Shown here: piece after piece, positions 1-19,521 of the stretch | Position numbering within the stretch: position 1 is the first letter of the stretch | How the letters are laid out: each line of letters begins with the position of its first letter | From: an uncultured bacterium | GTDB taxonomy: Bacteria; Vulcanimicrobiota; CADAWZ01 | Length of the DNA stretch: 48,682 bases | Direction: 5' to 3' | Assembly: GCA_902790465.1 (NCBI GenBank) | Contig: CADASF010000034.1 | Location: 1 to 48,682, forward strand | Translations under genes and position numbers: made by a program | The notes under the pieces: generated by a model | What the model was told of the DNA's origin: nothing | What the model saw: the letters and a program-made list of their open reading frames with translations, nothing else | The model's database searches: none

Positions 1-261
1 GGACGAGCAGATTTGGTTATTCCATTTGAAGATAAGATTATCATAATCGAATTTAAATTTGCCAAGAGTTCAAAAGAAGTAGATAAAAAGAGAGCAGAAG
101 GTCAAGAACAAGTAACAAGATATGCAGAAAGTTATAAAAATGAACTAATAGTTAAAAACTCTGACGAGTTTTTAAAAAATAACCCCCACAAGGGGGCAGG
201 GAAGAAGATAATCACAGTCGTTTTAGTTGCAGATAATGAGAAAAAGCAAGTTGTTGGGTAA
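1..261 (+). CDS. AAA-ATPase-like/PD-(D/E)XK protein, C-terminal part (5' end outside window)
   Basis: The reading frame is open from base 1, so only the last 86 residues are present. They begin GRADLVIPFEDK and run into IIIIEFKFAK, which supplies the D...E-x-K signature of the PD-(D/E)XK fold found at the C-terminus of the AAA-ATPase-like (DUF1703) family. A helix with EGQEQVTRYAESYKNE and a final strand KKIITVVLVAD follow, as is usual for the family. The biological role of the family is not established; it is often multicopy. Related copies lie at 42559-44025 and 48620-48682, but both end differently: the helix between EFKF and KKIIT is present here and missing from the 42559 copy. Family assignment is firm from motif and paralogue comparison. 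Confidence 0.85.
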   Translation, partial: GRADLVIPFEDKIIIIEFKFAKSSKEVDKKRAEGQEQVTRYAESYKNELIVKNSDEFLKNNPHKGAGKKIITVVLVADNEKKQVVG

Positions 262-318
262 AAAAATATTGTGGAAATATATTTTATTATAGAAGTTCTT
301 AGGAGAAATAAAATTTAT

Positions 319-1830
319 ATGAATTCAATAGAAATTGAAAAAGAAGTTAAGGAAATATTAAAAGAATTACCTTCTGAAAGTGTTGAGCTTGATTATAAAC
401 AAAGATTTTATAAGGTTGATAAAAAAATTGATTTTGTAAAAGATGTTATTGCAATGCTTAATTCTCTTGAATCTATTGGAGAAAATAAATATATAATTTT
501 TGGGGTTTCTGATGAAAAAAAACTTATCGGAGTAGATGATGAGCAAATAATTAATGATAACATATTTCAAGATTGGGTTAAAAATTATATTTTTCCAAAA
601 CCTATAATAAAAACTGGAATTGTTGAATTTGAAAATAAAAAATTTGGTTATATTTGTATTTCAAAAAATAATAAATATTGTATTTATGAAGCTAATGAAA
701 ATGTTATAGGGAATTTTCAAATTAAATCGTTGACTAAGAATGCAGTTTTAAAAGGACAAGCATTTTTTAGACGAGGAAGTAAAAATGAAGTAATGACTCA
801 AGAAGATAGAGAAAAAATTCTTTTGAATGAAAATTCTGTTTTTTATCAACAACATATTTTAAATTTAAAGAATAGAATAAAAGAATTTGAAAACAGAATA
901 CCAAATTTAAAACTTGGTTTAAAATTACTTGGCAGTATTACTGATGAAGAAAATAAATTTGAGAAGAATGAATATAACTTTTCTAAAATTATAAAAATTA
1001 AAGGAAAAAATGTTCAACAAATTTATTTTTCTAAAAAACTATACAATTTTGATGAATTTTCAGAAGATGATAGAAAATATATTAGCAAAGAATATATTGA
1101 TAATTATAATAAATCAATAATTGATAAGTCAGCTGAAATTGATAAATATAATATTGATAGATTTTTATATAGTTCTGTTTTTGATAATGGACAAATATTT
1201 GATTTTTGTATAAAAAATGAAGGAACAGTCGAAGCAAAAAATATAAATATTATTATTGAGTTTCCAGAATATATATTTATAAAATTTAAAGATAAAGCCA
1301 AAGATATAATTTCTGAAGATAATCAAAAAAAAATGATTATTGCTCTTGATATTCCAGAAAATCCAGTAGAAAAAATTGAGATGGAAAAGAGAAAACAAGA
1401 ATTAGCTAATAATAAAATATTAACTCCCTTTTTAGCTAATGTTGAAAAAACAAATAAATTATTTTATTATTTAAATTTAAATACAGAAAAAATATCAAAT
1501 TTTGAGAAAATAATTAATATTCATTTAGAAAATTATAATAAATTATCAGAAGAAAAAAAGTTATTTTCTCAGGCAATTTTAAATTCTGTTAATAATAATT
1601 TTGAAACATCTATAAATAATACTTCTGAAAATCCTAAAGTAGATATTAAAGAACACAAAATAGAGATTGAAATAAAAGAAGGCTTGTTACATACTTTTTC
1701 AGAAGAAATTGATAATATTTGTATTATTCCAACTAAAACAGGAAAATTTGATGTTAAAGTTTCCATTTTCTGTAAAGAATATTTAAAATGGCAAGAATAT
1801 ACAATTACATTTGAAGTTGAAGATAAATAA
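319..1830 (+). CDS. AlbA_2 (Schlafen-type) domain protein
   Basis: About 503 residues. The first 170 or so match the AlbA_2 (divergent AAA-4/Schlafen) pattern: ESVELDYKQRF, then FVKDVIAMLNS, YIIFGVSDEKKLIGVDD, and later AFFRRGSKNEVMTQEDRE. Proteins with this domain bind nucleic acid, and several take part in phage defence. The remaining 330 residues are Lys/Glu/Asn-rich and I recognise nothing in them. I chose the ATG at 319 because AGGAG (301-305) precedes it; an in-frame GTG at 271 has no ribosome site. The next item downstream, 22 bp on, is a restriction-gene scar, so the gene sits at the edge of the defence island. A defence role is inferred from domain and context. Confidence 0.75.
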   Translation: MNSIEIEKEVKEILKELPSESVELDYKQRFYKVDKKIDFVKDVIAMLNSLESIGENKYIIFGVSDEKKLIGVDDEQIINDNIFQDWVKNYIFPKPIIKTGIVEFENKKFGYICISKNNKYCIYEANENVIGNFQIKSLTKNAVLKGQAFFRRGSKNEVMTQEDREKILLNENSVFYQQHILNLKNRIKEFENRIPNLKLGLKLLGSITDEENKFEKNEYNFSKIIKIKGKNVQQIYFSKKLYNFDEFSEDDRKYISKEYIDNYNKSIIDKSAEIDKYNIDRFLYSSVFDNGQIFDFCIKNEGTVEAKNINIIIEFPEYIFIKFKDKAKDIISEDNQKKMIIALDIPENPVEKIEMEKRKQELANNKILTPFLANVEKTNKLFYYLNLNTEKISNFEKIINIHLENYNKLSEEKKLFSQAILNSVNNNFETSINNTSENPKVDIKEHKIEIEIKEGLLHTFSEEIDNICIIPTKTGKFDVKVSIFCKEYLKWQEYTITFEVEDK

Positions 1831-1851
1831 TATTTTTTGAGGCTAAATACA

Positions 1852-1995
1852 ATGCACTTTGAAGAGATAATCACAAAACTAAATACAGAAGCCACGAGTG
1901 AAAGAGACAAGGGCTATAAATTTGAGCTTTTGATTAAGAATTGGCTTCTTTATGAAAAACTTTACAGAGAAAATATAGACAAGAACAAGTCTTAA
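1852..1995 (+). pseudogene. N-terminal remnant of a type ISP-like restriction/helicase gene
   Basis: A 47-codon reading frame from ATG 1852 ends at TAA 1995. It contains TSERDKGYKFELLIKNWLL followed by YEKLYRENID. This closely resembles the start of type ISP restriction-modification enzymes and related Mrr-domain helicases, where a short helix is followed by an S-E-x-x-K-G-x-x-F-E-x-L motif. Those proteins are normally far longer, so this is a stump. The matching C-terminal tail appears in the same orientation at 7134-7274 and 10389-10484, so the genes between look like replacements of the body of this gene. Family naming is from memory of the motif, without alignment. Confidence 0.6.
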
Positions 1996-2100
1996 ATTTT
2001 TAAATATCTAATTAAAGAAGATTTTTTGTTAAAAATATAGAATAAAACAAAAATTTATATATTATATTATATATTATAATTGAAATAAGAGTAAGAAAAA

Positions 2101-3105
2101 ATGTCTTTTGATATTTGGAATAGGCGTTACACAGGAAGTAAATTAAAATTAATTGATTGGATTGATGAATTGATAAATAAAAACTGCAAAGGAAAATCTT
2201 TTTGTGATATATTTGCGGGAACTGGAATAGTGAGTTTTAAAGAAATTGAAAAATTTGATCATATCATAATTAATGATTTTCTTTATTCTAATAATGTTAT
2301 ATACAATGCTTTTTTTCTTCAAGAAAATTATGATTTAGAAAAATTGCAAAATTTTATTAATAATACAAGAAAATCAATAGAAAATATACAAGATAATTTT
2401 TTTTCAATTAACTATGGGGGAAAATATTTTTCATATAATGACTGTAAAATAATTGGAAATATAAGAAATGATATAGAAAAATATAAAAATGAATTCAATA
2501 AAAAAGAATATTGCATTTTAATTGCAAGTTTATTATATTCAGCTGATAAAATATCAAATACAGTAGGTCATTATGATGCTTATATAAAAGGAAAAGAGAT
2601 AAAAGATAAGTTTATTTTTGAATTAATAAAGCCTTATATTTTTGAAAACAAAATTATTGATATATACAGAATTGATTCCAATAAATTAGCAGAACAAATA
2701 AAATGCGATATTGTTTATATTGATCCTCCATATAATTCTAGACAATACAGTCGATTTTACCATATTTTAGAAACTTTAACAAAATGGGATAATCCAAAAT
2801 TAACTGGTGAAGCATTAAAGCCACCTGGAGAAAATATGAGTAATTATTGTAGAAGTTCTGCTAAAAATGTATTTGATGATTTAATTTCTAAATTGAACTG
2901 TAAATATATTGTTGTTTCTTATAACAATACATATAATTCAAAAAGTAAATCTTCAAAAAATAAAATAGAATATGAAGATATTGTTAAATCTCTTCAAAAT
3001 CGTGGAGAGGTAGATATTTTTAGCAAAAAACATCAATTTTTTAATGCAGGAAAAACAGATTTTCAAGATCATAAGGAATTTTTATTTATAACAAAAGTTG
3101 GTTAA
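2101..3105 (+). CDS. D12-class DNA adenine methyltransferase (M1 of type IIS system)
   Basis: A 334-residue N6-adenine methyltransferase. The N-terminus RRYTGSKLKLIDWI is the AdoMet-pocket entry, motif I is CDIFAGTGIVS (residues about 35-45), and the catalytic motif IV is DPPY at 208-211 within YIDPPYNSRQY. It transfers methyl from S-adenosylmethionine to an adenine in the recognition site. The next gene starts 8 bp downstream and encodes a second, divergent D12 methylase, followed by an AlwI-type endonuclease. Two methylases are expected when the site is asymmetric and each strand needs its own enzyme. TATAAT-like AT-rich sequence at 2058-2085 could hold the operon promoter, but base composition makes that uncertain. 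The exact recognition site cannot be read from sequence. Confidence 0.9.
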   Translation: MSFDIWNRRYTGSKLKLIDWIDELINKNCKGKSFCDIFAGTGIVSFKEIEKFDHIIINDFLYSNNVIYNAFFLQENYDLEKLQNFINNTRKSIENIQDNFFSINYGGKYFSYNDCKIIGNIRNDIEKYKNEFNKKEYCILIASLLYSADKISNTVGHYDAYIKGKEIKDKFIFELIKPYIFENKIIDIYRIDSNKLAEQIKCDIVYIDPPYNSRQYSRFYHILETLTKWDNPKLTGEALKPPGENMSNYCRSSAKNVFDDLISKLNCKYIVVSYNNTYNSKSKSSKNKIEYEDIVKSLQNRGEVDIFSKKHQFFNAGKTDFQDHKEFLFITKVG

Positions 3106-3113
3106 ATTAAATT

Positions 3114-4013
3114 ATGGATATATTACGTTCTCCCTTTTTTTATGTTGGGGATAAATATAAATTAATGCCACAGTTAAATAAATTATTTCCCAAAGAAATA
3201 AAAACTTATTATGAGCCTTTTTGTGGTGGTGGCAGTAGTTTTTTAAATACAAAAGCAGAAAGATATATAGTAAATGATATAAATTTTTATATCTTTAAAC
3301 TCCATAAATTATTTAAACAAAATGCTAAAAAAGAAGAATTTTTTGTAAATATATTATTTGACTTAATAAAAAAATATGGTTTAAGTTGTTCTTATATTGG
3401 TATAAATGTTCCAGAAGAATTAAAGAAAAAATATGTAAAAACTTATTATGCAAAATATAATAAAGAGGCATATAAAAAAATGCGTGATGATTTTAATATA
3501 AATCAAGCAAATTTTTATTTGTTATATTTATTATTAATTTATGGATTTAATCATATGATCCGATTTAATTCCCAAGGTTTATTTAATTTGCCAGTAGGAA
3601 ATGTTGATTATAATAATAATGTTGCTAAAGCTATTAAGTCATATTTAAATTTTTTAGCACTAAATAATGTTATTCTAAAAAATTTTGATTATAAGATTTT
3701 TTTAAAAAAACAATCTTTTGAGGAAAAAGATTTTGTTTTTTGTGATCCACCTTACTTAATTTCACAATCAGAATATAACAAAATATGGAACACAGAAGAA
3801 GAAAAGAAATTATATGAAATTTTAGATGATTTAGATAAAAGAAATATAAAATTTGGATTGACAAATTTAGCATACCATAAGGGAAATAAAAATGAAATTT
3901 TATTAAAATGGTCAGAAAAATATAATTGTTATTCTGTAAATAGTAACTATATTAGTTTTAATGACAACACAATAAAAAAAGATTCTAAGGAAATTTATGT
4001 AACAAATGTATAA
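3114..4013 (+). CDS. D12-class (Dam-like) DNA adenine methyltransferase (M2 of type IIS system)
   Basis: A 299-residue Dam-family enzyme. It starts SPFFYVGDKYKLMPQLNKLF, has motif I EPFCGGGS at 34-41, a helical target-recognition region with NHMIRFNSQGLFNLPVG, and DPPY at 211-214. It belongs to the same broad class as the preceding methylase but is not a recent duplicate: the sequence outside the motifs differs throughout. The stop codon overlaps the start of the endonuclease gene by 8 bp, so translation is probably coupled and the three genes form one operon. It most likely methylates the second strand of the asymmetric site. Length is normal for the family, and all key residues are present. 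Confidence 0.9.
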   Translation: MDILRSPFFYVGDKYKLMPQLNKLFPKEIKTYYEPFCGGGSSFLNTKAERYIVNDINFYIFKLHKLFKQNAKKEEFFVNILFDLIKKYGLSCSYIGINVPEELKKKYVKTYYAKYNKEAYKKMRDDFNINQANFYLLYLLLIYGFNHMIRFNSQGLFNLPVGNVDYNNNVAKAIKSYLNFLALNNVILKNFDYKIFLKKQSFEEKDFVFCDPPYLISQSEYNKIWNTEEEKKLYEILDDLDKRNIKFGLTNLAYHKGNKNEILLKWSEKYNCYSVNSNYISFNDNTIKKDSKEIYVTNV

Positions 4014-5592
4014 GAAAAAACCTTTATCTTTTAATACTACTTTAAGAAATCCAAATAGAATAGCTGGTTTTTTATCTGTTTTAAATAAATATGAAGGACA
4101 AATTTTAACAAATGATTTAATTTATCAAATCTGTTATGATATTATTTCTAAAAAATTATATAAGCCAACTGCTATATCCAAAAATAGAGAATGGCAAGAT
4201 ATATATAATTCACCAACAATTTATTTTACAGTAAATGAAGCTCAAGAAATTTTAAATTTATCACCGCAAAAACATAAAGAAGCAGGTTTTGATTATGGAT
4301 GGGCTTCTCGTTTTGATACTTGGTATAAATTAATAATGGAATTTGGATTATGTTTTTATGAGATGAATGCTCCTATTGAAATCAGCACATTAGGAAAAAA
4401 TTTAATAAAAGCATACGATGAATCAGCTACAGATGATGACTTAATACAAAATATATTTCTAAATATTTTGGCAAAATTTCAAACATCTACACCATTTAGA
4501 AAAAATGCAAATAATAATATTCCCTTAATGTTATTATTAAAAGTGATTAAACTCCTAAAAAATGATAAAAAAGAAAATAATGCAGGAGTATATAAGAGAG
4601 AAATTCCTTTTTTCTTATGTTGGCAAAATAACAATGCAGAAGAATTATATAAATATATAAAAAATTTTAGAAAACAATATAGTTTTGAAGCAAGCGATGA
4701 AATAATATATGAACATTGTTTAAATTTATTTTTAGATGAGCATAACAAAGATATTGAAAGCCTAAAAACATATATAAAATCTTCAAAACTTTTGAAAGAA
4801 AGTGTAGATGAATATATTAGAAAAATGAGAATTACAGGGGTAATATCTCTAAGAGGCAATGGTCGTTTTTTAGATTTCAATATGTTTGAAATAGAAAAAA
4901 TTGATTATCTAATAAATAATTATGGGGATTGCATAAATTTTATTAGCAAAAGAGAATATTATAATTACATTCAAAAAAAAGATTCATTTTTATTTAAAAA
5001 TTTTGAAAAAGATCAAAAAGATTTGCAAAAAATAAAGCAATCGGTAATAAAAAAATATGCAGAAATATATAGTGAAGATAAATTAATAAATGAGCTAATT
5101 TTTACTTATAAGGGAACAACGAAAGACGATTTATTAAAATTTATAGATAATCCTGTTCGATTAGAATTTTTAACTGCGATTGCTTTAGTAAAATATTTTG
5201 AAAATATAACAGTAATAGCAAATTATTCATCTGATGACGAGGGACTTCCAAAATTTACAGCTCGTGGTGGAATGGCTGACATTGAATGTTTTCAAAAAAA
5301 TTGTTATGCTTTAGTTGAAGTAACTTTAATGACAGGAGCAAGCCAACAAACCGAACATGAAATGACATCAATTTCAGATCATTTAAAAACGGCTTCTAAA
5401 AATTCAGAAAAATACACAATAGCTTTATTTATTGCCCCCATTCTTCAAGAAAGAGCTATTGATTATATGGAATATATGAATGAAAGAAAATTGATTAATA
5501 AAAATTGTGGTGGAATTATTTCAATGAGAATTTTAGATATGATTCCTAATTTTAAAAAAGTTGATGAAATCACAGATTTTGTAAATATCTAA
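4006..5592 (+). CDS. AlwI/BstNBI-family type IIS restriction endonuclease
   Basis: A 528-residue protein. The opening KPLSFNTTLRNPNRIAGFL and the C-terminal block are typical of the AlwI family (AlwI, PleI, MlyI, BstNBI). The catalytic core is GMADIE (D425, E427), then ALVEVTLMTGASQQ (E438), then YTIALFIAPIL. This matches, residue class for residue class, the nuclease core of BstNBI as I remember it. Such enzymes read short asymmetric sites and cut (or nick) a few bases away. The upstream AAGGAA (3987-3992) lies inside the methylase gene. The gene is intact, while a decayed second copy of its last 45 or so codons lies at 6216-6359. Family call is strong; specificity is unknown. Confidence 0.85.
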   Translation: MYKKKPLSFNTTLRNPNRIAGFLSVLNKYEGQILTNDLIYQICYDIISKKLYKPTAISKNREWQDIYNSPTIYFTVNEAQEILNLSPQKHKEAGFDYGWASRFDTWYKLIMEFGLCFYEMNAPIEISTLGKNLIKAYDESATDDDLIQNIFLNILAKFQTSTPFRKNANNNIPLMLLLKVIKLLKNDKKENNAGVYKREIPFFLCWQNNNAEELYKYIKNFRKQYSFEASDEIIYEHCLNLFLDEHNKDIESLKTYIKSSKLLKESVDEYIRKMRITGVISLRGNGRFLDFNMFEIEKIDYLINNYGDCINFISKREYYNYIQKKDSFLFKNFEKDQKDLQKIKQSVIKKYAEIYSEDKLINELIFTYKGTTKDDLLKFIDNPVRLEFLTAIALVKYFENITVIANYSSDDEGLPKFTARGGMADIECFQKNCYALVEVTLMTGASQQTEHEMTSISDHLKTASKNSEKYTIALFIAPILQERAIDYMEYMNERKLINKNCGGIISMRILDMIPNFKKVDEITDFVNI

Positions 5593-5626
5593 AATAAAAC
5601 AGAGAAATATATATTTTATAAAAAAT

Positions 5627-5664
5627 AAAAAGGGGAGAACTTCTTTGATTTTCTCCTTTTTTAT
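5627..5664 (+). terminator. Rho-independent terminator after the restriction operon
   Basis: AAAAGG(G)GAGAA pairs with TTCTCCTTTT across a short loop and is followed by TTTTTTATTT. It lies 34 bp after the endonuclease stop codon, which fits the end of the three-gene operon. Confidence 0.75.
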
Positions 5665-5913
5665 TTAGAAAATTTATTTGTAAAATTTCAATTAGCCAAT
5701 TTTGGAGTATAATATGCCTTTTGTCGGTAAATTTAATTTTTTTTAAATAATAAAAGTAAATAGAAATATAGAAGCATAGAAATAAATAGTTAATTTGTCA
5801 TATCTTATTTTAATTCTTCTAAATTTTTTTTTGAAAAGCTCTTTTTATAATATTTCTTGTTTTATATAAAATATCATTTATAGTATATTAATAAAAAAAC
5901 AAGTAGTGAGGGG

Positions 5914-5942
5914 TTGACGAACTCCTTTTATTGCGTGATAAT
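5914..5942 (+). promoter_or_regulatory. Sigma-70-type promoter in front of a dead gene
   Basis: TTGACG (5914-5919), a 17-bp spacer and GATAAT (5937-5942) form the best consensus promoter in this spacer. A small hairpin TTCCTA...TAGGAA lies downstream (about 5985-6010), then AAAGGA and an ATG at 6034 whose frame stops after 13 codons. The promoter therefore now serves no intact gene directly, though it could drive the Abi-alpha gene at 6383. Confidence 0.55.
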
Positions 5943-6033
5943 AAAGATATTATATTTTATATATTATAATAAGAATATATATATAAAGATATTCCTATTA
6001 TAATTTAGGAATTATAAGTTAAAAGGATTAATA

Positions 6034-6172
6034 AATGAGTGGAAGGTTTATTGAAGTTATAAAAGAGCTATCATGAAAAAATAAAGGTTGTAGTCAAATT
6101 AGGAAATGAATTTGTGTAGGAATGTTATGGAAAATATTTAGGAGCAGTTATGGAATGAGATTAAAAAAATAT
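6034..6172 (+). pseudogene. Degenerate unidentified coding remnant
   Basis: ATG 6034 opens MSGRFIEVIKELS and stops. In the shifted frame the protein-like sequence continues YHEKIKVVVKLGNEFV, stop, ECYGKYLGAVME, stop. At least one frameshift and two in-frame stops are needed to join it. I do not recognise the family. It lies between a good promoter and a decayed copy of the AlwI gene tail, and the rest of 5665-6215 shows only AT-rich sequence. Confidence 0.4.
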
Positions 6173-6215
6173 TTTAAATTTTGATAATAAAGAATAAGAT
6201 TTCTATCTCTGTAAT

Positions 6216-6359
6216 AAAGAGCTATTGATTATATATATGAATGAAAGAAAATTGATTAATAAAAATTGTGGTGGAATTATTTCAATGAGAATTTCAGATA
6301 TGATTCCTAATTAAAAAAAATAATGAAATCAAAGATTTAATAAATATCTAAACTAAAAT
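6216..6359 (+). pseudogene. Decayed second copy of the AlwI-type endonuclease 3' end
   Basis: This stretch matches 5450-5600 almost base for base (AAAGAGCTATTGATTATAT, then ATGAATGAAAGAAAATTGAT and on through the stop region). It differs by small indels (loss of GGAATA near the start, loss in TTTTAAAAAAGTTG) and substitutions that create stops. It is a partial duplication of the last 45 or so codons plus a few bases beyond the stop. The copy ends about 25 bp before the Abi-alpha gene. Confidence 0.85.
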
Positions 6360-6382
6360 ATATAAAATGGATTGATCAAATT

Positions 6383-7129
6383 ATGGATAAAATAAAAGAT
6401 ATTGTACCTATAGATAAAGTTTATGAAGATTTACTTCGTCCTTCAATGAAAGAAGCTGGTGATATTGTCAAAAATGTAATCAAAGCTGCAAGGTGTTTAT
6501 TGATTCCATTAGATTTGTTGTCGGCTCAGCAAGATCGTTTTCAGAATTATTTAAAAAGGATTGTAGAAAATGTAGATGAAGAAAATTTAGTTAATGCCCC
6601 TGCAAGGATTGTAGGAAAAGTTTATGAAGAATTAAAATATTTAGAACAAGATAGTATTTTGACTGAATTATTTCTTAACTTGCTTACAATTTCTATTAAT
6701 AAAACTCAACAGAGTAAAGTCCATCCTGCATTTCCAACAATTATAAGTCAACTTGCTCCTTACGAGGCAGTTATATTATTTTATCTGAATAAACAATCAT
6801 TTGAGTTGAAAGAATATATGAATTTAGATATTCAAAAAAATATATTTACGGATAAAAAAATATTATATAATAAATTATTAGATAAATTTAAATCAGATAA
6901 ACTTGATATTAAGGAAGAGTATATCTATATATACATAGATCATTTGACTAGTTTAAATATTATATCTGCAATGCAAAAGGGAAATCAAGTTCCAGTTTTT
7001 GATGATACAGGTAAACAAATTGGCTTAGAAATTTATTATAATATTGAGTTAACAGTTTTTGGTAAATTATTCGCATCTGTAGTTATTCCAAATAACCTTG
7101 AAACTTTTTCTGATATAAAAACAAAATAA
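6383..7129 (+). CDS. Abi-alpha (DUF4393) family protein
   Basis: A 248-residue protein. It matches the DUF4393/Abi-alpha pattern: an N-terminal helix with IVKNVIKAARCLLIPLDLL, then DRFQNYLKRIVENV, PARIVGKVYEELKY, LTELFLNLLTISIN and the very typical VHPAFPTIISQLAPYEAVIL. The C-terminal third carries LTSLNIISAMQ and ends LTVFGKLFASVVIP, also usual in the family. These proteins are linked to abortive infection of phage; mechanism is unknown. No signal peptide and no clear membrane span are seen. The ATG at 6383 has no good Shine-Dalgarno site. The gene ends a few bases before a restriction-gene tail scar, so it probably arrived as one of several exchanged cassettes. Confidence 0.8.
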   Translation: MDKIKDIVPIDKVYEDLLRPSMKEAGDIVKNVIKAARCLLIPLDLLSAQQDRFQNYLKRIVENVDEENLVNAPARIVGKVYEELKYLEQDSILTELFLNLLTISINKTQQSKVHPAFPTIISQLAPYEAVILFYLNKQSFELKEYMNLDIQKNIFTDKKILYNKLLDKFKSDKLDIKEEYIYIYIDHLTSLNIISAMQKGNQVPVFDDTGKQIGLEIYYNIELTVFGKLFASVVIPNNLETFSDIKTK

Positions 7130-7133
7130 TATA

Positions 7134-7274
7134 AAGAAACATTATGACTATGCAAGAGAATACGGCAATCAATACTATATCTTCGAATTGGCTAAAAATG
7201 TAATCAACATCGCAGTCCATACAGTCAAAATCCTCGACGAGTTGAACAAAATCGAAGTAGAAATAGGAGTATAA
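7134..7274 (+). pseudogene. C-terminal tail of the lost type ISP-like restriction gene, copy 1
   Basis: Open frame with HYDYAREYGNQYYIFELAK, then NVINIAVHTVKILDELNK and IEVEIGV before TAA 7274. The I-F-x-L-x-K-x-V-I-x-I-x-x-x-T-V-x-I pattern is how type ISP enzymes end. It has no start codon or ribosome site of its own. The last codons contain AGGAG, which now acts as the ribosome site of the next gene (ATG 7278). A near-identical tail is at 10389-10484 and a short version at 8187-8232. Confidence 0.65.
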
Positions 7275-7277
7275 TTT

Positions 7278-8210
7278 ATGGAACAAACTCAGAATAATTC
7301 ATTTAATTTACTTAGAAATGCAGGAATATATGCTATTTTAGATGGCGATAGTAAATTTGAAGAATATAAATTTTCTGATAATGGTGCAAATATAACAATA
7401 GCTATGCCATATTTAAATGGAGCCGACTTACGGAATTTGTCTTCTTCCTTTGGATTAATACAAAAAAATACTGGTATTAGTCGTTGGCAATATCTTGATA
7501 ATTTATTTGAATATTGTATAAAAGAAGATCTTTGTTCTGATTTATTATTAAATTTTTTTGATAAGAAAAAGTTTAAATGTAAATTTTGGGGGCATAGTGT
7601 CGATGTAATTGATGAAGCATATAATACTTTTGTTCAAACAATACTAAAAAAAATAAATGGATTTTTATATTTTGATGATTATGAACTTATCTTAAAAGAT
7701 AATCAATTTAGTGTAAGGCAAATAGGTTGTAATGTTGAAATACAAGCTCCTTCTCTAAAAAATATCAACTATGACTATATAACAGGTATATATAAAAGAG
7801 CCACGGAAGATATTGAGAATAAGAATTTTGATAGTGCAATTACAAAATCTCGGAGTTTACTTGAAGAGATTTTCTGTTTTGTAATAGAAAAGAAAAATGC
7901 AATTCCTCCTAAAACTGGTAATATTTATGAATTATATAAGAAAGTTAAGGACTTATATAATATGCATAATAAATCTAATATTGATAAGTGTATTAATGCT
8001 CTTTTATCAGGATTAGTAAATATTGTAAAATCAATTTCAGAAATGAGAAATAGTGTAAGTGATGCTCACGGTTTAGGTTCTAAGAGATTCAAGGTAGATG
8101 AACATCATACTCGATTATGTGTAAACTCTGCTATAACTATGTCTGAATTTATCTTAGCGGTAGAACAAAAAGCTAATTCTAAACAAAATAAAATAGAAGT
8201 CGAAATATAA
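7278..8210 (+). CDS. Abortive infection protein with HEPN-like Abi_C domain
   Basis: 310 residues. The N-terminal 170 are unassigned. The C-terminal part is an Abi_C domain: IYKRATEDIENKNFDSAITK, SRSLLEEIFCFVIEKK, then NIVKSISEMRNSVSDAHGLG, where R-N-x-x-x-D-A-H-G is the HEPN-like signature linked to RNA cleavage in phage defence. AGGAG at 7265-7269, inside the preceding gene scar, is its ribosome site. Its last residues NKIEVEI and the bases after its stop (ATATTTGGCGAATGAC) repeat the tail of the lost restriction gene. The gene therefore seems joined at both ends to copies of the same scar. Domain call is good; the substrate is unknown. Confidence 0.75.
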   Translation: MEQTQNNSFNLLRNAGIYAILDGDSKFEEYKFSDNGANITIAMPYLNGADLRNLSSSFGLIQKNTGISRWQYLDNLFEYCIKEDLCSDLLLNFFDKKKFKCKFWGHSVDVIDEAYNTFVQTILKKINGFLYFDDYELILKDNQFSVRQIGCNVEIQAPSLKNINYDYITGIYKRATEDIENKNFDSAITKSRSLLEEIFCFVIEKKNAIPPKTGNIYELYKKVKDLYNMHNKSNIDKCINALLSGLVNIVKSISEMRNSVSDAHGLGSKRFKVDEHHTRLCVNSAITMSEFILAVEQKANSKQNKIEVEI

Positions 8211-8232
8211 AAAAAAATATTTGGCGAATGAC
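8187..8232 (+). repeat. Short third copy of the restriction-gene tail and its flank
   Basis: AATAAAATAGAAGTCGAAAT with TAA and then ATATTTGGCGAATGAC corresponds to 10461-10504 (AACAAGTTACAAGTAGAAAT, TAA, ATATTTGGCGAATCAC). Coding sense is kept (NKIEVEI), so the Abi_C gene now ends with this borrowed tail. Confidence 0.6.
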
Positions 8233-8265
8233 TTTTTTTTCATCAATATAATAAAGGATAAATAA

Positions 8266-9663
8266 ATGAGATTATATCGTTATAGAAATATTAAAAATGC
8301 TCTACTAGAACTTGAAAAGGGAACATTTTATTTTGCTAACTATAAGGAATTAAATGATCCTATTGAAGGATATATGAGAGTATATTGGCAAGGTGATAAA
8401 TATGCTTGGGAAGGATTATTTAAAAATTATATTTGTAGTTTGTTTAATGCTCTTCTATACTATTACATATCTGATAATGAATATTATATTGATTCTAAAC
8501 AAGACTTTGAAAATGCTGTTAAAAAAGTAGGAATAATTCTTGATTTAAATAGGTTTAATAATGTAACTTTTGGTAAGATTTTCCAAAAATTATATGAAAA
8601 ATTTTTAAAAAATGAATTTGTTCAAAGGATTATTTGTTTTTGTTCTGATAACAAGAAAATTTTTTCTAAACACATTAAATTATTTTTTTTATTTATACAT
8701 AAGATTGCGTTATATATTTGTTTAGAAGAAATAAAAAAATATATAAATATTGATTTATATGAATTAAAATTGTTGGAAGAATTTTGCCACAATATTGGTT
8801 ATTTTATTAATTTTGAACAATTAAATATTATTTATGAAGATGACAAATCTCATATAGATTTTTTAAATTCTTTTTGTAAAAGTGAAATAGAAAACATATT
8901 TTTAAAATTATTTTCAACTGATAGTGATTTGTATAAGAAGAGAAGATATAGACATTATTATTCAGTTCGTGATGAATTTCCAAATATTTATATAGAAAAA
9001 TTAAGAGATATTATTTATCCAGATGGTCATATTGTATGTTTTTCAAAAAATTCAGATAATTCTTCAATGTGGGGAAATTATGCAGATAACCATAAGGGCA
9101 TATGTTTTATATATGAAACAAAGAATATTGATAACAAAGAAGTGATACCAGTTGAATATTTCAAGATAGATATAAAACCTGTAAAGTATGAGAACAATCT
9201 TATTGAACGAAATTTTTTTCTCTCTTTAGGTAGATTGACATTACAGCAGATAAATACTTGGTTGAGCGGAATAAATCCAAATGAGTTAAGTGATTTATTA
9301 CATGATTATTTATCTATTAGAGAAGGTAAAATAGAAGAAAATAAATGGAGAAATGAATATTGGAAAAATTTCGAGGAAATATTTTTTAGAAAAATGATTG
9401 ATTGGAAATATGAATCAGAATATCGTATGCTTATGGCAGATTCGTTACATGAATTAAAAGATAAAACAAAAAGAGTAAAGCAATATGATAAAGAATGTTT
9501 AAAAGGTATTATTTTTGGAATTAGAACAAATATAGAAGATAAAATGAATTTGATAGAAAAAATAAGAAATTTAGGGAAAAATATAAAAGAATTTGAATTT
9601 TATCAGGCTTCGTATGATGAAGAAGATAAGAAAATTATCTTGAATAGGTTATACTATGAATAA
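8266..9663 (+). CDS. DUF2971 family protein
   Basis: A 465-residue protein with the hallmarks of DUF2971: N-terminal RLYRYRNIKNALLELEKGTF, then FANYKELNDPIEG, central IVCFSKNSDNSSMWGNYADN, HKGICFIYE, and near the end FFRKMIDWKYESEYRML. It is longer than many members because of an insert (about residues 60-220) rich in Ile, Phe, Lys and Asn. The family often occurs in defence islands, but its biochemical function is not known. AAAGGA about 10 bp before the ATG is the ribosome site. A restriction-gene tail flank lies just upstream and a palindromic element just downstream. It probably acts alone or with the small gene at 10021. Confidence 0.8.
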   Translation: MRLYRYRNIKNALLELEKGTFYFANYKELNDPIEGYMRVYWQGDKYAWEGLFKNYICSLFNALLYYYISDNEYYIDSKQDFENAVKKVGIILDLNRFNNVTFGKIFQKLYEKFLKNEFVQRIICFCSDNKKIFSKHIKLFFLFIHKIALYICLEEIKKYINIDLYELKLLEEFCHNIGYFINFEQLNIIYEDDKSHIDFLNSFCKSEIENIFLKLFSTDSDLYKKRRYRHYYSVRDEFPNIYIEKLRDIIYPDGHIVCFSKNSDNSSMWGNYADNHKGICFIYETKNIDNKEVIPVEYFKIDIKPVKYENNLIERNFFLSLGRLTLQQINTWLSGINPNELSDLLHDYLSIREGKIEENKWRNEYWKNFEEIFFRKMIDWKYESEYRMLMADSLHELKDKTKRVKQYDKECLKGIIFGIRTNIEDKMNLIEKIRNLGKNIKEFEFYQASYDEEDKKIILNRLYYE

Positions 9664-9682
9664 TTAGCATTTTTTATTAAAA

Positions 9683-10005
9683 TAACTCGTTCTGCTAATT
9701 GATTCTTAAAAAAATAAGTAAATAAAAATTTGCTATAAACTATTCAATATATGCCTGTATACTGCCATTTTGTCATTGCGAGGCTTTAGCCGTGGCAATC
9801 TAAGCCTGTAAATTATTATTTACTTAAAAATTAAGTCGATCGTATATATTTAAAATGTTGTACTCGATTTATTTAATAAATCACAAAATTTAAATTAAGT
9901 GGTTGAGATTGCCACGGTCGCACAGCTCCCTCGCAATGACCTCACCTCTAAATAGAGGCTGTTTGGGGAGATTTTAAAATATTAATTAACTAATATAACG
10001 AGTTA
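9683..10005. repeat. Spacer bounded by a 9-bp inverted repeat
   Basis: TAACTCGTT (9683-9691) is repeated inverted as AACGAGTTA (9997-10005), enclosing the palindromic element at 9772-9940. No gene is seen in this 357-bp spacer. A short hairpin CCTCTAAATAGAGG lies at about 9945-9960. The outer pair is short and could be chance. Confidence 0.35.
9772..9940. mobile_element. Dispersed palindromic element (MITE/REP-like)
   Basis: The left end GTCATTGCGAGG...CCGTGGCAATCT and the right end AGATTGCCACGGTCGC...CCTCGCAATGAC are inverted copies with AT-rich sequence between. GTCATTGCGAGG...GGCAATC is a well-known dispersed bacterial palindrome type. The ends have more G+C than the surroundings. It has no reading frame, so it would depend on an enzyme elsewhere. 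Confidence 0.65.
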
Positions 10006-10020
10006 AAAGAGAGATAAGAA

Positions 10021-10374
10021 ATGAAAAGTGAAGAGATTTTTTTTCAAAATTTAAATAATATTTATGATGTTATACAAGTGATAAATTCTTGTCAAGAAAT
10101 ATTAAAAGATTCTATTACTCTTATTGAACATAAATTTGTGATAGAAAGATATATGATAACTAAGTATTTAGATAGGAAACAAGCAATAGATATTTATAAA
10201 AAATTTAATCTTGAAAATCCAGAATATTTATTAGGAATAAATCTTTATCTTGTATTAAATCCTAATAATTGTGTAAATCTTGAACTATCATCTAATGAAG
10301 TTATTATTGAGAATTTATCATTACAACTTTTATGTTTTTGTTTTAAGAAAACTATAAAATATTTGAACAAATAA
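10021..10374 (+). CDS. Small protein of unknown function
   Basis: 117 residues, acidic/basic mixed and probably all helical at the N-terminus (SEEIFFQNLNNIYDVIQVIN, then EHKFVIERYMITKYLDRKQA), ending in a hydrophobic helix LQLLCFCFKKTIKYLNK. No signal peptide and no motif I recognise. AGAGAG lies just before the ATG. It sits between the palindromic element and the second restriction-gene tail, in line with the defence genes on both sides. It could be an accessory factor or antitoxin-like partner of the DUF2971 protein, but only position suggests this. Confidence 0.55.
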   Translation: MKSEEIFFQNLNNIYDVIQVINSCQEILKDSITLIEHKFVIERYMITKYLDRKQAIDIYKKFNLENPEYLLGINLYLVLNPNNCVNLELSSNEVIIENLSLQLLCFCFKKTIKYLNK

Positions 10375-10388
10375 AATATTGGCCCCCA

Positions 10389-10484
10389 CGCTATATCTTC
10401 GAATTGGCTAAAAATGTAATCAATATAGCCATAAAAACAGTCGCAATCCTCGACGAATTAAACAAGTTACAAGTAGAAATATAA
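10389..10484 (+). pseudogene. C-terminal tail of the lost type ISP-like restriction gene, copy 2
   Basis: Frame YIFELAKNVINIAIKTVAIL, then DELNKLQVEI and TAA 10484. It is nearly the same as copy 1 (7134-7274) but shorter at its 5' side and with its own substitutions. The bases after the stop (ATATTTGGCGAATCACT) match those after the Abi_C gene. It has no start site. Confidence 0.65.
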
Positions 10485-10531
10485 AAATATTTGGCGAATC
10501 ACTGTATTATAAAAAATTTAAGGAAAAAATA

Positions 10532-11836
10532 ATGAAAATTAAAGAACTTTATTTAAAAAATTTCCGTTGTTTTGAAGAAACAAAAATAGATTTCAATACA
10601 GATTATACTATTTTTGTTGGAATAAATGGAGCAGGTAAATCATCAATTTTAAATGCAATACAAATTATGTTATATCCAATTATGGAAGTATCTCAATATG
10701 ATATTCGTAACACTGGAATATCGAGTGATCCAAATATTAAAGATAGTGATATAACAACAAAAACAAAGAAATTGGGAAGTATTCTAAATCAAGAATTACA
10801 ATATCCAATGATTTTAAAATCTACTTTTCAAAAGTCAGATGATATAGAAATTCCTTTAGAATATACATTAAATAAAAATCATATAAATACAAGTGCAGAA
10901 ACAGAACCTCTTGTTGAATATGTAAGATATTTGCAAAATAAAGTAACAGAAGATGAAAAAACAATACTTCCAGTAATTGCTTATTATGGAACAAAAAGGC
11001 AGTGGGAGAAAACAGGACAAGAAGCTACAGATGAAATTTTATTTATGCCACAGATGAATGGCTATATAAATGCTCTAAGTGCAGAACCATTTAATATTAT
11101 GAGAATGAGACATTGGTTTTCTCGTATGTTATTAATTTCAAGAAAAAAGCCTGTTCTCGAATTTGAAGCAGTAAGAAATGCCATTGCAAATTGTTATAAA
11201 GAAATTGATGATAGGGAAGAATTGCAAGAAGTTAAAATTGACTATGATGCTGAAAAAGAAGATATAGAGATTCAAATGTATTTTGAAGATAAGACTGAAA
11301 TTTTACCATTGAGTTATTTGAGTGATGGAATGAAAAGCATTTTGGCTATTGTTTCAGACATTGCATATCGTATGGCTACCTTAAATCCTAATCTTCTTGA
11401 CAATGTGATAAAAGAAACAGATGGTATTGTAATGATAGACGAAATCGACATGCACTTGCACCCTTCTTGGCAAAGAAAAATAGTAGATAGTTTGACAAAA
11501 ACATTTCCAAAAGTTCAATTTATTTTTACGACTCATTCTCCTACAGTTTTAACAAATGTACCAAAAGAAAATATTAAAATAATATCTAATGGTAATATAT
11601 TTGATACAAATATAAATACTTATGGTCGTGATGTAAATTCAATCCTTAGAGAAATAATGCACAGTAAAATTCGTCCTTCTGAAACTCAAAAAATATTAGA
11701 TGATTTTTCAAATGCAATAGCAGATTCAGATTTAGAGAATGCAGAAAAAATACTTGAACAATTAAAAAGTATTTTAGGCGAAAATGACAGTGAAGTTGTA
11801 AACGCACAAGTAACTCTTGATCTTGAAAAAATATGA
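10532..11836 (+). CDS. ptuA: Septu-like ATPase PtuA (AAA/ABC-type)
   Basis: 434 residues. It starts MKIKELYLKNFRCFEETKID, with Walker A GINGAGKS at 30-37, a signature-like PLSYLSDGMKSILAIVSD, Walker B GIVMIDEIDMHLHP (D303, E304) and FTTHSP (H335). This is the SMC/RecF-like ATPase layout used by PtuA and by the ATPases of some retrons. The partner 10 bp downstream is an HNH nuclease of the PtuB/TIGR02646 type, which makes Septu the best name. PtuA is thought to form the oligomeric sensor that holds PtuB. No reverse transcriptase or structured RNA is visible nearby, so a retron is unlikely. AAGGAAAA precedes the ATG. Confidence 0.8.
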   Translation: MKIKELYLKNFRCFEETKIDFNTDYTIFVGINGAGKSSILNAIQIMLYPIMEVSQYDIRNTGISSDPNIKDSDITTKTKKLGSILNQELQYPMILKSTFQKSDDIEIPLEYTLNKNHINTSAETEPLVEYVRYLQNKVTEDEKTILPVIAYYGTKRQWEKTGQEATDEILFMPQMNGYINALSAEPFNIMRMRHWFSRMLLISRKKPVLEFEAVRNAIANCYKEIDDREELQEVKIDYDAEKEDIEIQMYFEDKTEILPLSYLSDGMKSILAIVSDIAYRMATLNPNLLDNVIKETDGIVMIDEIDMHLHPSWQRKIVDSLTKTFPKVQFIFTTHSPTVLTNVPKENIKIISNGNIFDTNINTYGRDVNSILREIMHSKIRPSETQKILDDFSNAIADSDLENAEKILEQLKSILGENDSEVVNAQVTLDLEKI

Positions 11837-11846
11837 GGTTTTAATC

Positions 11847-12548
11847 GTGATTTACATCAAAAAAAATTCTCCGCCTAAAAAATTTGTTGAATTTGTACAA
11901 AAAAATAAAAAAGCACATTTTAAAGCACATTTTGATGATATGCCTTCTGATGTTAAACAGATTTTAAGAGAGTCTCTTTTAAAAGAACAGGGATATTTAT
12001 GTGCTTATTGCATGAGTAGAATTAATATAGAAGATAAAAATACAGAACAAAATACCACAAAAAATAAAATATTAAATAAAATAGAACATTATGTACCACG
12101 AAATAGTGAAAATGAACTTGATTATAAAAATCTTTTAGCTGTTTGTGGTGGAAATTCTTTTGGAAATGAGGAAAAACATCAGCATTGCGATACAAAGAAA
12201 GGCAATAAAACTTTAAAAATTAATCCTCAAAATAAATACCATATAAGTCAAATTTCTTACAAACCAGATGGCACTATTTATTCAAAAAATAAAGAGTTTG
12301 ATGATGATCTTAATAAAGTTCTCAATTTGAATGATGATGAAGGTTGTCTTAAACAACGCAGAAAAGAAGCATTGGATACACTAAAAAGTGAAATTCATAA
12401 AATTTATAAAGATAAAACAGCAACTTTAAATTTTCTAAAAAAAACATTAAATTTTTATACAAGTTTAAATGAAAAAGGAGAGCTACAACCATATTGTGGT
12501 ATTCTTATTGAATATTTAGAAAAGAAAATAAATAACTGGCACAAATAA
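11847..12548 (+). CDS. ptuB: Septu-like HNH nuclease PtuB
   Basis: About 233 residues. The HNH/zinc layout is clear: CAYC at 52-55, IEHYVPR with H81, then NLLAVCGG and CDTKKGN (C114). This is the TIGR02646/PtuB pattern, a DNA-cutting effector partnered with PtuA. I chose GTG 11847 because TGAGGT lies 8 bp upstream and the protein then follows the ptuA stop by 10 bp; an upstream TTG would overlap ptuA without a ribosome site. The final residues KKINNWHK, the stop region and the terminator are repeated at 14637-14730, after the next cassette. Confidence 0.8.
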   Translation: MIYIKKNSPPKKFVEFVQKNKKAHFKAHFDDMPSDVKQILRESLLKEQGYLCAYCMSRINIEDKNTEQNTTKNKILNKIEHYVPRNSENELDYKNLLAVCGGNSFGNEEKHQHCDTKKGNKTLKINPQNKYHISQISYKPDGTIYSKNKEFDDDLNKVLNLNDDEGCLKQRRKEALDTLKSEIHKIYKDKTATLNFLKKTLNFYTSLNEKGELQPYCGILIEYLEKKINNWHK

Positions 12549-12619
12549 TTTTTATTTACTAAAAACATAAAAAAATCGTGTTGAGAAATTTTTCTTAACA
12601 CGATTTTTTTACTCACTTA
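12524..12619 (+). repeat. Direct repeat: ptuB tail plus terminator, copy 1
   Basis: GAAAATAAATAACTGGCACA and following bases through the hairpin to CTCACTTA match 14637-14730 with few changes. It contains the ptuB 3' end and the bidirectional terminator. The repeat ends at the TTA that, in the second copy, is the stop codon of the STAS gene. Confidence 0.85.
12569..12610. terminator. Bidirectional terminator hairpin after ptuB
   Basis: AAATCGTGTTGAGAAA pairs with TTTCTTAACACGATTT, flanked by A-runs on the left and T-runs on the right, so it can work on both strands. The same hairpin occurs at 14685-14722. Confidence 0.85.
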
Positions 12620-12655
12620 TTTTATATTTGAAATAAAACTCACTGAATTTTTATT

Positions 12656-12678
12656 AAAAGGAAAAATATTTTCCTTTT
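12656..12678. terminator. Perfect 10-bp hairpin, possible second terminator
   Basis: AAAAGGAAAA pairs exactly with TTTTCCTTTT around a 3-base loop and is followed by TATTTC. It lies 100 bp upstream of the next cassette and may shield it from ptuAB transcription. The rest of 12620-12777 shows only AT-rich sequence. Confidence 0.5.
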
Positions 12679-12777
12679 TATTTCAAAAAAATATTATTTT
12701 TTATCATTTTTCTAAATGAAAAGGAAATTTAATTTACCTTTAGAATATAATTATAAAATAAAATAAGGAAAATAATA

Positions 12778-14034
12778 ATGGAAATACAAAGAGTTTTTAT
12801 AGATGGATTTAAAAATTTATCAAATATTAATATAAATTTTGATAAATTAACTGCTTTAGTTGCATTAAATAATTTTGGTAAATCAAATGTATTATCTGCT
12901 TTAGAATTTGGAATATCTTTCATTCAAAGAAGACCTATTGACAAAGTAAAATTAATGTCAAGTACAAAGTTTATTCCTCTTAATAAAGCTATTGATAATA
13001 AAAGTTTTACTTTTGCCATTGAATTATTAATGAATTTAAATTCTCAAAATTATTATGTTTATTATGAATTTAAATTTAACTGGGCTTTACCTAATCCTAA
13101 AATAATATACGAATCCTTAAAAATTAAAACAGATAAAAAAGGTAATAAATTTACTCAACTAATAAATAGAAATGAAGAAGAAGCAAAATATAAAAGTTCA
13201 AAAACAAGTAAATGCTCTACGAAAATTAAAATAGAATCTAATGAGCTTGTTATTAATAAATTGCAGGCATATGATAATATATATTATTTAGAAGTCATAA
13301 AACAAATAAATTCTTTGACTTTTCACACAGAAAAAACTTTAGATGCTAAAAATAGTCTTTATGTTCAAGAAATTGTTATTAACAGAACTGAAAATGAAAT
13401 TTCTGTTGAAAGTCTGCCAAGTATTATATTTGAATTAAAAAATAGATACCCAGATAAATATGAATTACTAATAAATACATATAAAGAGTTATTCCCCAAT
13501 ATTGAAGATTTACAAGTTAGAGAATTTTCTTTAAATGCAACAGATATTAATAATATACAAAATAAAAATATTATTTCCCCTAAAGCATATTTCTTGACAG
13601 TTAAAGATAAAAATTTGATAGATTATGTAAATTTTTCTTCAATGTCTGATGGAGCAATAAGAATTTTTACAATCCTAACTAAAATTATTATTGCATCTAT
13701 AAGTAACATCTCATTAATAGCAATAGAAGAACCAGAAAATTCAATGCATCCAAAATTATTTAAAGCATATATTCAAATAATTTTGCAACTTTTAGATCAA
13801 TGTAAACTTATTATTACAAGTCATTCTCCTTATATTATTAACTTTATAGACCCTAAATGGATTTATGTAGGTTTAAATAAAAAAGAAGGAGTAGCAGAAT
13901 TTTTTTCTTTCAAAAAAACAGGTAGAAAAAAATTATTGAAAGATGCAGAAGATTTAGATATGGGGATGGGGGATTATCTATTTTCTCTTATTAGTGATAA
14001 CTCTTCAAATATTGATGAATACTTGGAGCGTTAA
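12778..14034 (+). CDS. AAA ATPase of an OLD/PARIS-like two-gene cassette
   Basis: 418 residues. It opens IQRVFIDGFKNLSNININFD. The Walker A region is ALNNFGKSN (29-37), a relaxed P-loop; a signature-like SSMSDGAIRIFTIL follows, Walker B is IAIEEPENSMHP (E317, E318), and ITSHSP carries H349. This is the OLD-family/RecF-type ATPase form (AAA_15/AAA_21). It has no TOPRIM domain of its own; a TOPRIM-like protein is encoded 4 bp downstream, so the pair resembles a split OLD nuclease or a PARIS-type AriA/AriB pair. AAGGAAAA precedes the ATG. The cassette is bounded by the ptuB-tail repeat. Exact family is not certain. Confidence 0.75.
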   Translation: MEIQRVFIDGFKNLSNININFDKLTALVALNNFGKSNVLSALEFGISFIQRRPIDKVKLMSSTKFIPLNKAIDNKSFTFAIELLMNLNSQNYYVYYEFKFNWALPNPKIIYESLKIKTDKKGNKFTQLINRNEEEAKYKSSKTSKCSTKIKIESNELVINKLQAYDNIYYLEVIKQINSLTFHTEKTLDAKNSLYVQEIVINRTENEISVESLPSIIFELKNRYPDKYELLINTYKELFPNIEDLQVREFSLNATDINNIQNKNIISPKAYFLTVKDKNLIDYVNFSSMSDGAIRIFTILTKIIIASISNISLIAIEEPENSMHPKLFKAYIQIILQLLDQCKLIITSHSPYIINFIDPKWIYVGLNKKEGVAEFFSFKKTGRKKLLKDAEDLDMGMGDYLFSLISDNSSNIDEYLER

Positions 14035-14038
14035 TCAA

Positions 14039-14635
14039 ATGAATAAATGTATTGTTTTATTTGTTGAGGGACAAACCGAAGTAGAATTTTATAATAAAAT
14101 TATATCTTATATAAGAGAACAACTACCCAACAAAAAATTTGATGTTAAAATTAATTGTATAAATGTAGAAGGTGTAGGCGGTTTTAAGAAAGAGGCTTTA
14201 AAAAAATTCAAAAAAGAAATTAAAATAAAATACAAAAATCATCAATTTATAATTTTTTGTTGTTTAGATTCAGATGTTTTTGAAGGTTCACAACAACCAC
14301 CAATTAATTTAAATAAAATACAAAAAGATTTAAAAATTAATGGAGCTAATAAAGTTTTTATAATACAAGCTGTACACACTATAGAGGATTGGTTTTTAAT
14401 AGACATTGAGAGTATTTTATCCTTTTTAAAATTAAAACCAACTACGAATATTAATGGAAAAAATGGTCTTGATAAAATGAAAACTATTTATAAAAAAGCA
14501 AATAAAACATACATAAAGGGTGGTAATACTAAAGATTTTATAGAAAAACTAAACATAAATAAAATAATACAAAACGAAGAAGTTAAAGAAAAATTAAAAC
14601 CTTTATTTGATGAATTGAATTGCAAATTTCTTTAA
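14039..14635 (+). CDS. TOPRIM-like effector partnered with the AAA ATPase
   Basis: 198 residues from ATG 14039, next to the ATPase stop at 14034 (an upstream in-frame TTG would overlap the ATPase). The N-terminus KCIVLFVEGQTEVEFYNKII gives the TOPRIM glutamate (E10) and the second strand gives FCCLDSDVF with D77 and D79. These are the metal-binding residues of a TOPRIM nuclease. The remaining part has VHTIEDWFLIDIESILSFL, where the W-F-L-x-D motif recurs in DUF4276/RloB-like proteins. The likely role is a nuclease released or activated by the ATPase on phage infection, by analogy with OLD and PARIS. Subfamily is not settled. Confidence 0.65.
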   Translation: MNKCIVLFVEGQTEVEFYNKIISYIREQLPNKKFDVKINCINVEGVGGFKKEALKKFKKEIKIKYKNHQFIIFCCLDSDVFEGSQQPPINLNKIQKDLKINGANKVFIIQAVHTIEDWFLIDIESILSFLKLKPTTNINGKNGLDKMKTIYKKANKTYIKGGNTKDFIEKLNINKIIQNEEVKEKLKPLFDELNCKFL

Positions 14636-14636
14636 A

Positions 14637-14730
14637 GAAAATTAAAAACTGGCATAAAGAGTTTATTTAAAAAAACATAAAAAAAAATCGTGTTGAGAAA
14701 TTTTTCTTAACACGATTTTTTATTCACTTA
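14637..14730 (+). repeat. Direct repeat: ptuB tail plus terminator, copy 2
   Basis: GAAAATTAAAAACTGGCATA and following bases, in frame as KIKNWHKEFI, then the hairpin AAATCGTGTTGAGAAA...TTTCTTAACACGATTT (14685-14722) and TTCACTTA. It lies directly after the TOPRIM gene stop and ends in the STAS stop codon, so here the terminator serves both converging units. Confidence 0.85.
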
Positions 14731-15078
14731 GTTCGCTTCTATTTCATCAAGTACCATTTGTACATTTGGATATATTTTCATAACTTTACTCAATCCCGTT
14801 ATGTCAAATATCTTGTTTATTTCAGTTTTGGAGCTTACAAGATATAGCTTTCCATTCAATGAATTTACTTTTATGTTTGCAGATGTTACAGCACCGATTC
14901 CGCTACTGTCAATATGTTTTGTGTCTGTAAAATCTATTATGATATTTTTATGACCAGATGATATCAATTTGGAAAACAGTTTTTTTAGTTCAGAGTAAGA
15001 GACATAATCAATATCTCCAGTCAGTTCTACAATTGTAAGACCAGGTCTTGTTTCCTTCAAATCTTTTAGTACCTTCAT
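14728..15078 (-). CDS. STAS-domain anti-sigma factor antagonist
   Basis: 116 residues, one STAS domain of the SpoIIAA/RsbV type: IVELTGDIDYVSYSELKKLF, then NIIIDFTDTKHIDSSGIGAV, where S58 is the expected phosphorylation site, and GKLYLVSSKTEINKIFDI. In this family the unphosphorylated form binds an anti-sigma kinase and frees a sigma factor. No kinase (RsbW/SpoIIAB-like) or sigma factor is present in the window, so the partner is elsewhere. The gene is the last of the long minus-strand run, 14 bp after the zinc-ribbon membrane protein, with AGGAGC in front of its ATG. Confidence 0.9.
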   Translation of the reverse strand: MKVLKDLKETRPGLTIVELTGDIDYVSYSELKKLFSKLISSGHKNIIIDFTDTKHIDSSGIGAVTSANIKVNSLNGKLYLVSSKTEINKIFDITGLSKVMKIYPNVQMVLDEIEAN

Positions 15079-18002: not shown

Positions 18003-18662
18003 TTATATTTTTAATGACTCTTTCATATCTTCTGATATTTTCTTTAATTCTTCTAAATTTTCTTTATTTACTTTTTCAAGTAAAAATATTTCTTCTGTTT
18101 CTTTGTTTTCAAATTTATTTGGAATAGTCTTGCGTAATAGCAATATTAAATTCAAAACTCTTCTTTTATAACTTCTCTTTCCGCAAGATTCTGTAATTTC
18201 AGACTCTTTCACATATATATTAGCTATATTTAAAGATTCAATAAAAATAGGTTCTTTTTTGGGGGTATTTGGAATTATTTCCAATCCATTTTGGGAAAAT
18301 TTTAATGTAATTTTTTCTATTTTTGTGACCAATTTTTTTTCTAAGGATGTAAAGAAAGGCCAAAAGATAACCATGAGAACAATAAATATTATAATGGCTA
18401 TACATCCTCCAAAAAGACCAGCCAAATCACCGAAATATGGCTTAAGTATAAGGATTGATATTGTAACAGCAAATAACAATAAAATAATAATGATACCATT
18501 AAATATTAGTTCGTAAATTTTATTATTATTTTTTTCTTTTTTGGTAAAAAATAGTTCTTGCAGAAGTTTATGATAAACTGTATTTATTTCGATAGTCAGA
18601 TTTGTCTCATTTTTCACATAACTTGTTATTTGAAATATATTTGTTAATTTAGATTGATTCAT
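18003..18662 (-). CDS. Two-span membrane protein, paralogue 3 of 3
   Basis: 219 residues, related to the two genes upstream. Shared pattern: an N-terminal soluble part, then LLQELFFTKKEKNNNKIYEL leading into a first membrane span (IIIILLLFAVTISILIL), a second span (IIIFIVLMVIFWPFF), then TKIEKITLKFSQNGLEIIPN and PIFIESLNIANIYVKESEI, and a final helix. This copy is the most diverged. The layout (two spans followed by a beta-type domain) recalls YcxB-like proteins, but I cannot confirm this. No aroA tail lies in front of it. Function unknown. Confidence 0.6.
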   Translation of the reverse strand: MNQSKLTNIFQITSYVKNETNLTIEINTVYHKLLQELFFTKKEKNNNKIYELIFNGIIIILLLFAVTISILILKPYFGDLAGLFGGCIAIIIFIVLMVIFWPFFTSLEKKLVTKIEKITLKFSQNGLEIIPNTPKKEPIFIESLNIANIYVKESEITESCGKRSYKRRVLNLILLLRKTIPNKFENKETEEIFLLEKVNKENLEELKKISEDMKESLKI

Positions 18663-19515: not shown

Positions 19516-19521
19516 ACATAT

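Follow-up and report, generated by a model that had tools for sequence, protein, structure and literature searches.

The window analysed here, 48,682 bases long, is a complete contig (C34) of a 3.05 Mb draft genome that is 97.8% complete and distributed over 121 contigs. From position 1 to 14,635 all genes point rightward and belong to defense, and a chromosomal block running leftward begins at 14,728. Read from left to right, the defense families are the end of a PDDEXK_9 gene, a Schlafen/AlbA_2 gene, two D12 methyltransferases with an AlwI-type nuclease, Abi_alpha, AbiJ/Abi_C, DUF2971, an open reading frame without a family, the Septu genes PtuA and PtuB, and an AAA ATPase with a DUF4276 partner. 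The type IIS restriction-modification module (2101-5592, on the + strand like every island feature given below) is composed of two D12-class adenine methyltransferases (2101-3105 and 3114-4013) and the AlwI-type nuclease (4006-5592). It is followed by the Abi_alpha family gene (6383-7129; PADLOC PDC-S47), the AbiJ/Abi_C gene (7278-8210), a stretch at 8266-10374 that holds the DUF2971 gene (8266-9663; PADLOC PDC-S31) and a 117-codon ORF (10021-10374), the Septu pair (10532-12548; PtuA 10532-11836, PtuB 11844-12548), and the AAA ATPase with its DUF4276/TOPRIM-like partner (12778-14635). PDDEXK_9/DUF1703-type ATPase-nuclease genes occur in several copies (window 1-261 and 42559-44064; L014:3833-5458), and the left end of the window falls inside one of them. 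Outside the island, at 18003-20244, three related membrane-protein genes stand in tandem, with blocks 68-90% identical.

Scattered between these genes are one head and three tails, all of them genuine termini of type ISP restriction-modification genes. The head (1838-1982) comprises a 14-base leader, a start codon at 1852 and the first ~44 codons. Positions 1849-1983 align with residues 1-45 of the protein encoded by an intact ISP gene on contig C25 of the same genome (E = 1.1e-14), and the head DNA is 97.9% identical to the start of a second ISP gene copy (C30:98-242). Tail 1 (7144-7265) covers the final 40 codons, with the AbiJ leader standing in place of the stop, and is 85% identical in DNA to the 3' end of the intact C25 gene (E = 4e-34). 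Tail 3 (10385-10499) holds the last ~32 codons and some 3' flank; its positions 10385-10484 are 82% identical to the same 3' end (E = 3.5e-22), and its nearest relative is an orphan tail on contig C66 (88%). As peptides, tails 1 and 3 match residues 1635-1683 and 1648-1683 of the C25 protein, with E values for head and tails of 1e-10 to 1e-14. The site thus contains no intact ISP reading frame: residues 1-45 and 1635-1683 are represented and the body is absent. The original prediction had placed the head at 1852-1995 and the tails at 7134-7274, 8187-8232 and 10389-10484, all in one orientation; the shared orientation is confirmed, and the last head codons, up to 1995, are not homologous. As a separate observation, the Schlafen/AlbA_2 gene may sit within the leader of the ISP head, with TTGTGGAAATAT on its left (262-290) and AGGCTAAA-ACAATG on its right (1825-1852), both of which are present in the unbroken leader on C30.

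Tail 2 (8186-8232) overlaps the end of the AbiJ gene in the same reading frame, and DUF2971 and the 117-codon ORF stand between it and tail 3. Its coding part, of ~25 bases, is weak evidence when taken alone. The AbiJ profile match ends at residue 299 of 310, 11 residues before the end of a protein whose last ~8 codons (NKIEVEI) resemble an ISP end. Just past the stop, the 15-mer AAATATTTGGCGAAT forms a 3' flank common only to tails 2 and 3: it has exactly two exact copies in the 3.05 Mb, the second one after tail 3. The alignment of 8186-8269 with 10460-10535 scores 49, and the best of 500 shuffles reached 40. We judge tail 2 to be real because of this exclusive flank and because its alignment beats all 500 shuffles. 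Two other roles for the tails were considered and rejected: they are not small proteins, as the ISP frame has no plausible start codon, nor promoters, as promoter-like matches are no commoner in the region than in shuffles.

The assignment to type ISP goes back to the 1683-codon intact gene on C25 (L005:5774-10825). We counted as type ISP a single chain that carries an Mrr-family nuclease, an SF2 helicase, a coupler, a gamma N6-adenine methyltransferase and a C-terminal recognition domain, and the C25 protein has Mrr_cat_2, ResIII, Helicase_C, ISP_coupler, Eco57I and Type_ISP_C. In the PDB it hits both LlaGI (E = 2.7e-283) and LlaBIII (E = 7.8e-276; PMC4872093), aligning over nearly its whole length with an equal order of domains. 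In separate searches with the ends, its last 40 residues align to the extreme C-terminus of both enzymes and its first residues to the N-terminus of LlaBIII, so that the head and tails of the window correspond to the first and last residues of such an enzyme. Unlike LlaGI and LlaBIII, the window keeps the ends only, and nothing functional of an ISP enzyme remains. Searched alone in the PDB, the head and tail peptides gave no ISP match because they are too short and too divergent, and the family assignment therefore runs through the intact C25 gene. The proposal that the pieces are type ISP ends, which was to be checked by aligning the peptides to LlaBIII and LlaGI, is borne out by this indirect route and not by the direct one. 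A scan of a separate collection of genome contigs with the ISP protein returned no relatives, and neither tail nor head DNA was found in viral contigs.

The original prediction also held that all pieces fit one original gene, and this did not survive comparison of the tails. Tails 1 and 3 are 84% alike, tail 1 is 85% alike to the C25 gene, and tail 3 is 88% alike to the orphan tail on C66; the two are thus about equally distant from each other and from the intact gene. Tail 1 shares KIEVEI with the C25 allele, and tail 3 has the KLQVEI of the C66 tail, a split that agrees with the substitution pattern in separating them. Pairwise comparisons of tails give dN/dS of 0.11-0.28 at dS of 0.36-0.9 (ratios that are rough, as they rest on 32-45 codons), with 0.28 and 0.54 for tails 1 and 3. 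Unlike in decayed fragments, the differences are biased to synonymous sites, and the tails therefore diverged as parts of working genes. Since tails 1 and 3 diverged in this gene-like way and each is nearest to a different allele, at least two ISP alleles contributed tails to the island.

The second ISP gene of the genome is found in pieces on C30, C28 and C98, with contig overlaps of 79 bases (C30/C28) and 99 bases (C28/C98), and it ends at a contig end with its last ~110 codons missing. It has two different starts, both on the minus strand: L029 (C30) 1-231, where the head is intact, and L014 (C28) 1-1570, a version that lacks about 127 bases (a frameshift) and lies behind a TIR-domain gene. 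The two starts point to a duplicated gene or to a population that is mixed.

ISP sequence is not the only source of scars, as an AlwI-type nuclease and PtuB have left tail repeats too. Three pairs of direct repeats stand at module joints (5447-5607/6213-6366, 8186-8251/10460-10521 and 12521-12622/14634-14733), none of which is ever reached in 500 shuffles. In the first pair, a degenerate copy of the 3' end of the AlwI-type nuclease gene (5447-5607) lies at 6213-6366, directly left of Abi_alpha (88%, with two frame-breaking gaps). The second pair brackets DUF2971. In the third, the left copy (12521-12622) is the 3' end of PtuB with the terminator hairpin that belongs to the neighboring STAS gene, and the right copy (14634-14733; 86.5%) is a decapitated PtuB end with the terminator, directly right of the AAA/DUF4276 pair, which therefore sits between two copies of one PtuB-terminator junction. 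The copies within pairs are 74-88% alike, which excludes a simple recent duplication; either the donors were divergent or the events are old. A site-specific attachment site was rejected because the tails differ in their left ends; the left break points of the scars vary, and no fixed integration site was seen.

The right edge of the island is set by a sister species (G001), in which this terminator likewise follows the STAS gene and the sequence alignable to the window extends only to 14681; the terminator is therefore chromosomal and the island ends there. This genome, which is a different species and not a conspecific strain, carries the terminator and STAS gene once, with neither the island nor PtuB. 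An intact ISP gene at the site of the island was not found in the sister species, where the neighboring STAS gene stands without the island.

Elsewhere in the genome, a 137-base ISP tail stands on C66 after a cas operon (cas3 to cas2) and a repeat. Behind this tail is a 44-residue remnant that is 75% identical to the Rpn-like gene after the intact ISP gene on C25, an arrangement which suggests that the cas operon took the place of an ISP gene body at its original locus. The operon itself (L015, contig C66, 1363-9170) is I-B/I-C-like and precedes the repeat GTCTACTATTGTAGAT, with one more degenerate copy; L008, at about 660-830, is listed with this observation. We take this repeat to resemble that of Cas12a systems. 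Another contig, C22, holds a 43-base ISP tail. Apart from the second, broken ISP copy, no orphan middle fragments of ISP genes were found in the genome. In 387 other genomes the tail matches lie in large open frames with one ambiguous exception, a 48% match that contains a stop and lies at the very start of a contig.

We consider it fairly probable that the region 1-14680 is a co-directional defense island that grew as insertions or replacements piled up at the 3' ends of defense genes already in residence. This reading starts from the identity of the fragments, the different allelic origin of the tails, the direct-repeat pairs at the module joints and the right edge at the STAS terminator. 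The modules would have been stacked successively, and the ISP head and tails would be scars and not working parts, each marking a joint where a module joined, or replaced most of, a resident defense gene. The right-hand crossover would fall in or just past the 3' end of the resident gene and leave behind a tail of only 25-137 bases, including the stop and part of the 3' flank; such a crossover would either duplicate the tail, as an insertion, or cut off the rest of the gene, as a replacement. The tail donors would be at least two ISP alleles, the AlwI-type nuclease gene and the PtuB gene. We infer both the order of events and the origin of the repeats, which would have arisen from insertion with long target duplication or from a single crossover between gene tails on incoming DNA. 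With all genes counted, tails stand to heads at about 7 to 1, small numbers (seven tails, one head) that are too few to press and that suggest a bias of the scars toward 3' ends. Insertion at a tail would keep the resident gene intact, which would explain the survival of such events.

The island had originally been read as a record of successive replacements at one spot, and the layered record at one place stands, but not its restriction to the scars of a single ISP gene. In the version with one resident gene, the type IIS and Abi_alpha genes would have taken the body in place, and later modules would have duplicated parts of the remaining tail. The head and tails do keep the order and orientation of an intact gene, and the C66 tail retains the right flank of the intact ISP locus, so that replacement in place does occur in this genome. 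However, one gene has one tail, and tails 1 and 3 differ at a dS of 0.54 with a dN/dS of 0.28 and are each nearest to a different ISP allele; genes unrelated to ISP have moreover left the same scars. We therefore find a single resident gene unlikely.

Alternatively, the tails could have arrived already joined to the genes on their right, if ISP genes were the upstream neighbors of AbiJ and Septu in the donors and their ends were kept at the crossover. AbiJ and PtuA start only 13 and 48 bases past the tails, which leaves no space for a long leader of their own, but the right flank of the C66 tail is an ordinary ISP flank and not a defense module, and tails 2 and 3 share a flank yet precede different genes, which makes such an arrival quite improbable. 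A draft or metagenome-derived assembly could also have misjoined repeats. The genome is in 121 contigs and its ISP copies stop at contig ends with exact overlaps (99 bases for C28/C98, 79 for C30/C28), so ISP repeats did confuse the assembler. The scars of the window, however, lie inside a 48.7 kb contig, differ by 10-18% from every other copy and have unique flanks, and we hold an artefact to be very improbable. Returning to stacking at the 3' ends of resident genes, orphan ISP tails lie to the right of four modules (type IIS with Abi_alpha, AbiJ, DUF2971 and the cas operon), in addition to the one on C22. A doubtful extension is that ISP 3' ends might be sites at which unrelated defense modules repeatedly land or stack in this lineage, with tail-ended modules gained and lost by tail recombination.

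The island falls within a known kind of rearrangement, of which it is an instructive example, and does not represent a novel type of system. That rearrangement, insertion with long target duplication, was reported from Helicobacter pylori restriction genes (Nobusato et al., 2000, cited in PMC3031569, PMC1643837 and PMC4978471). Common to both cases are restriction and defense modules flanked by direct repeats, roughly 50-160 bases long, which duplicate part of a neighboring gene. The flanking copies of the target that this mechanism requires are present around AAA/DUF4276 (12521-12622/14634-14733) and DUF2971 (8186-8251/10460-10521). In contrast to the nearly identical repeats of those accounts, the repeats here are gene 3' ends that are 74-88% alike; there are several in a stack, and abortive-infection-type and Septu genes are among the modules. 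The variable defense loci of Streptococcus suis (PMC5398294), whose systems change from strain to strain, similarly hold different defense elements at a single chromosomal place, but many strains were compared there and the history here is read from the scars of one genome. Legible scars at the joints make testable a model in which defense islands acquire and exchange their modules by recombination at gene tails. They also call for caution in interpreting short ORFs of such islands, which can be the ends of dead genes and not small defense proteins.

Finally, a dispersed repeat (TCATTGCGAG...CCGTGGCAATC) occurs at 9770-9963 of the window and at L014:5918-6063, L005:10124-10157 and L018:292-329. 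It is intergenic in the window but in frame within both ISP genes, where it adds residues such as LSLRGEAVAI. Palindromic elements are likewise inserted in frame in Rickettsia genes, adding residues to their products.
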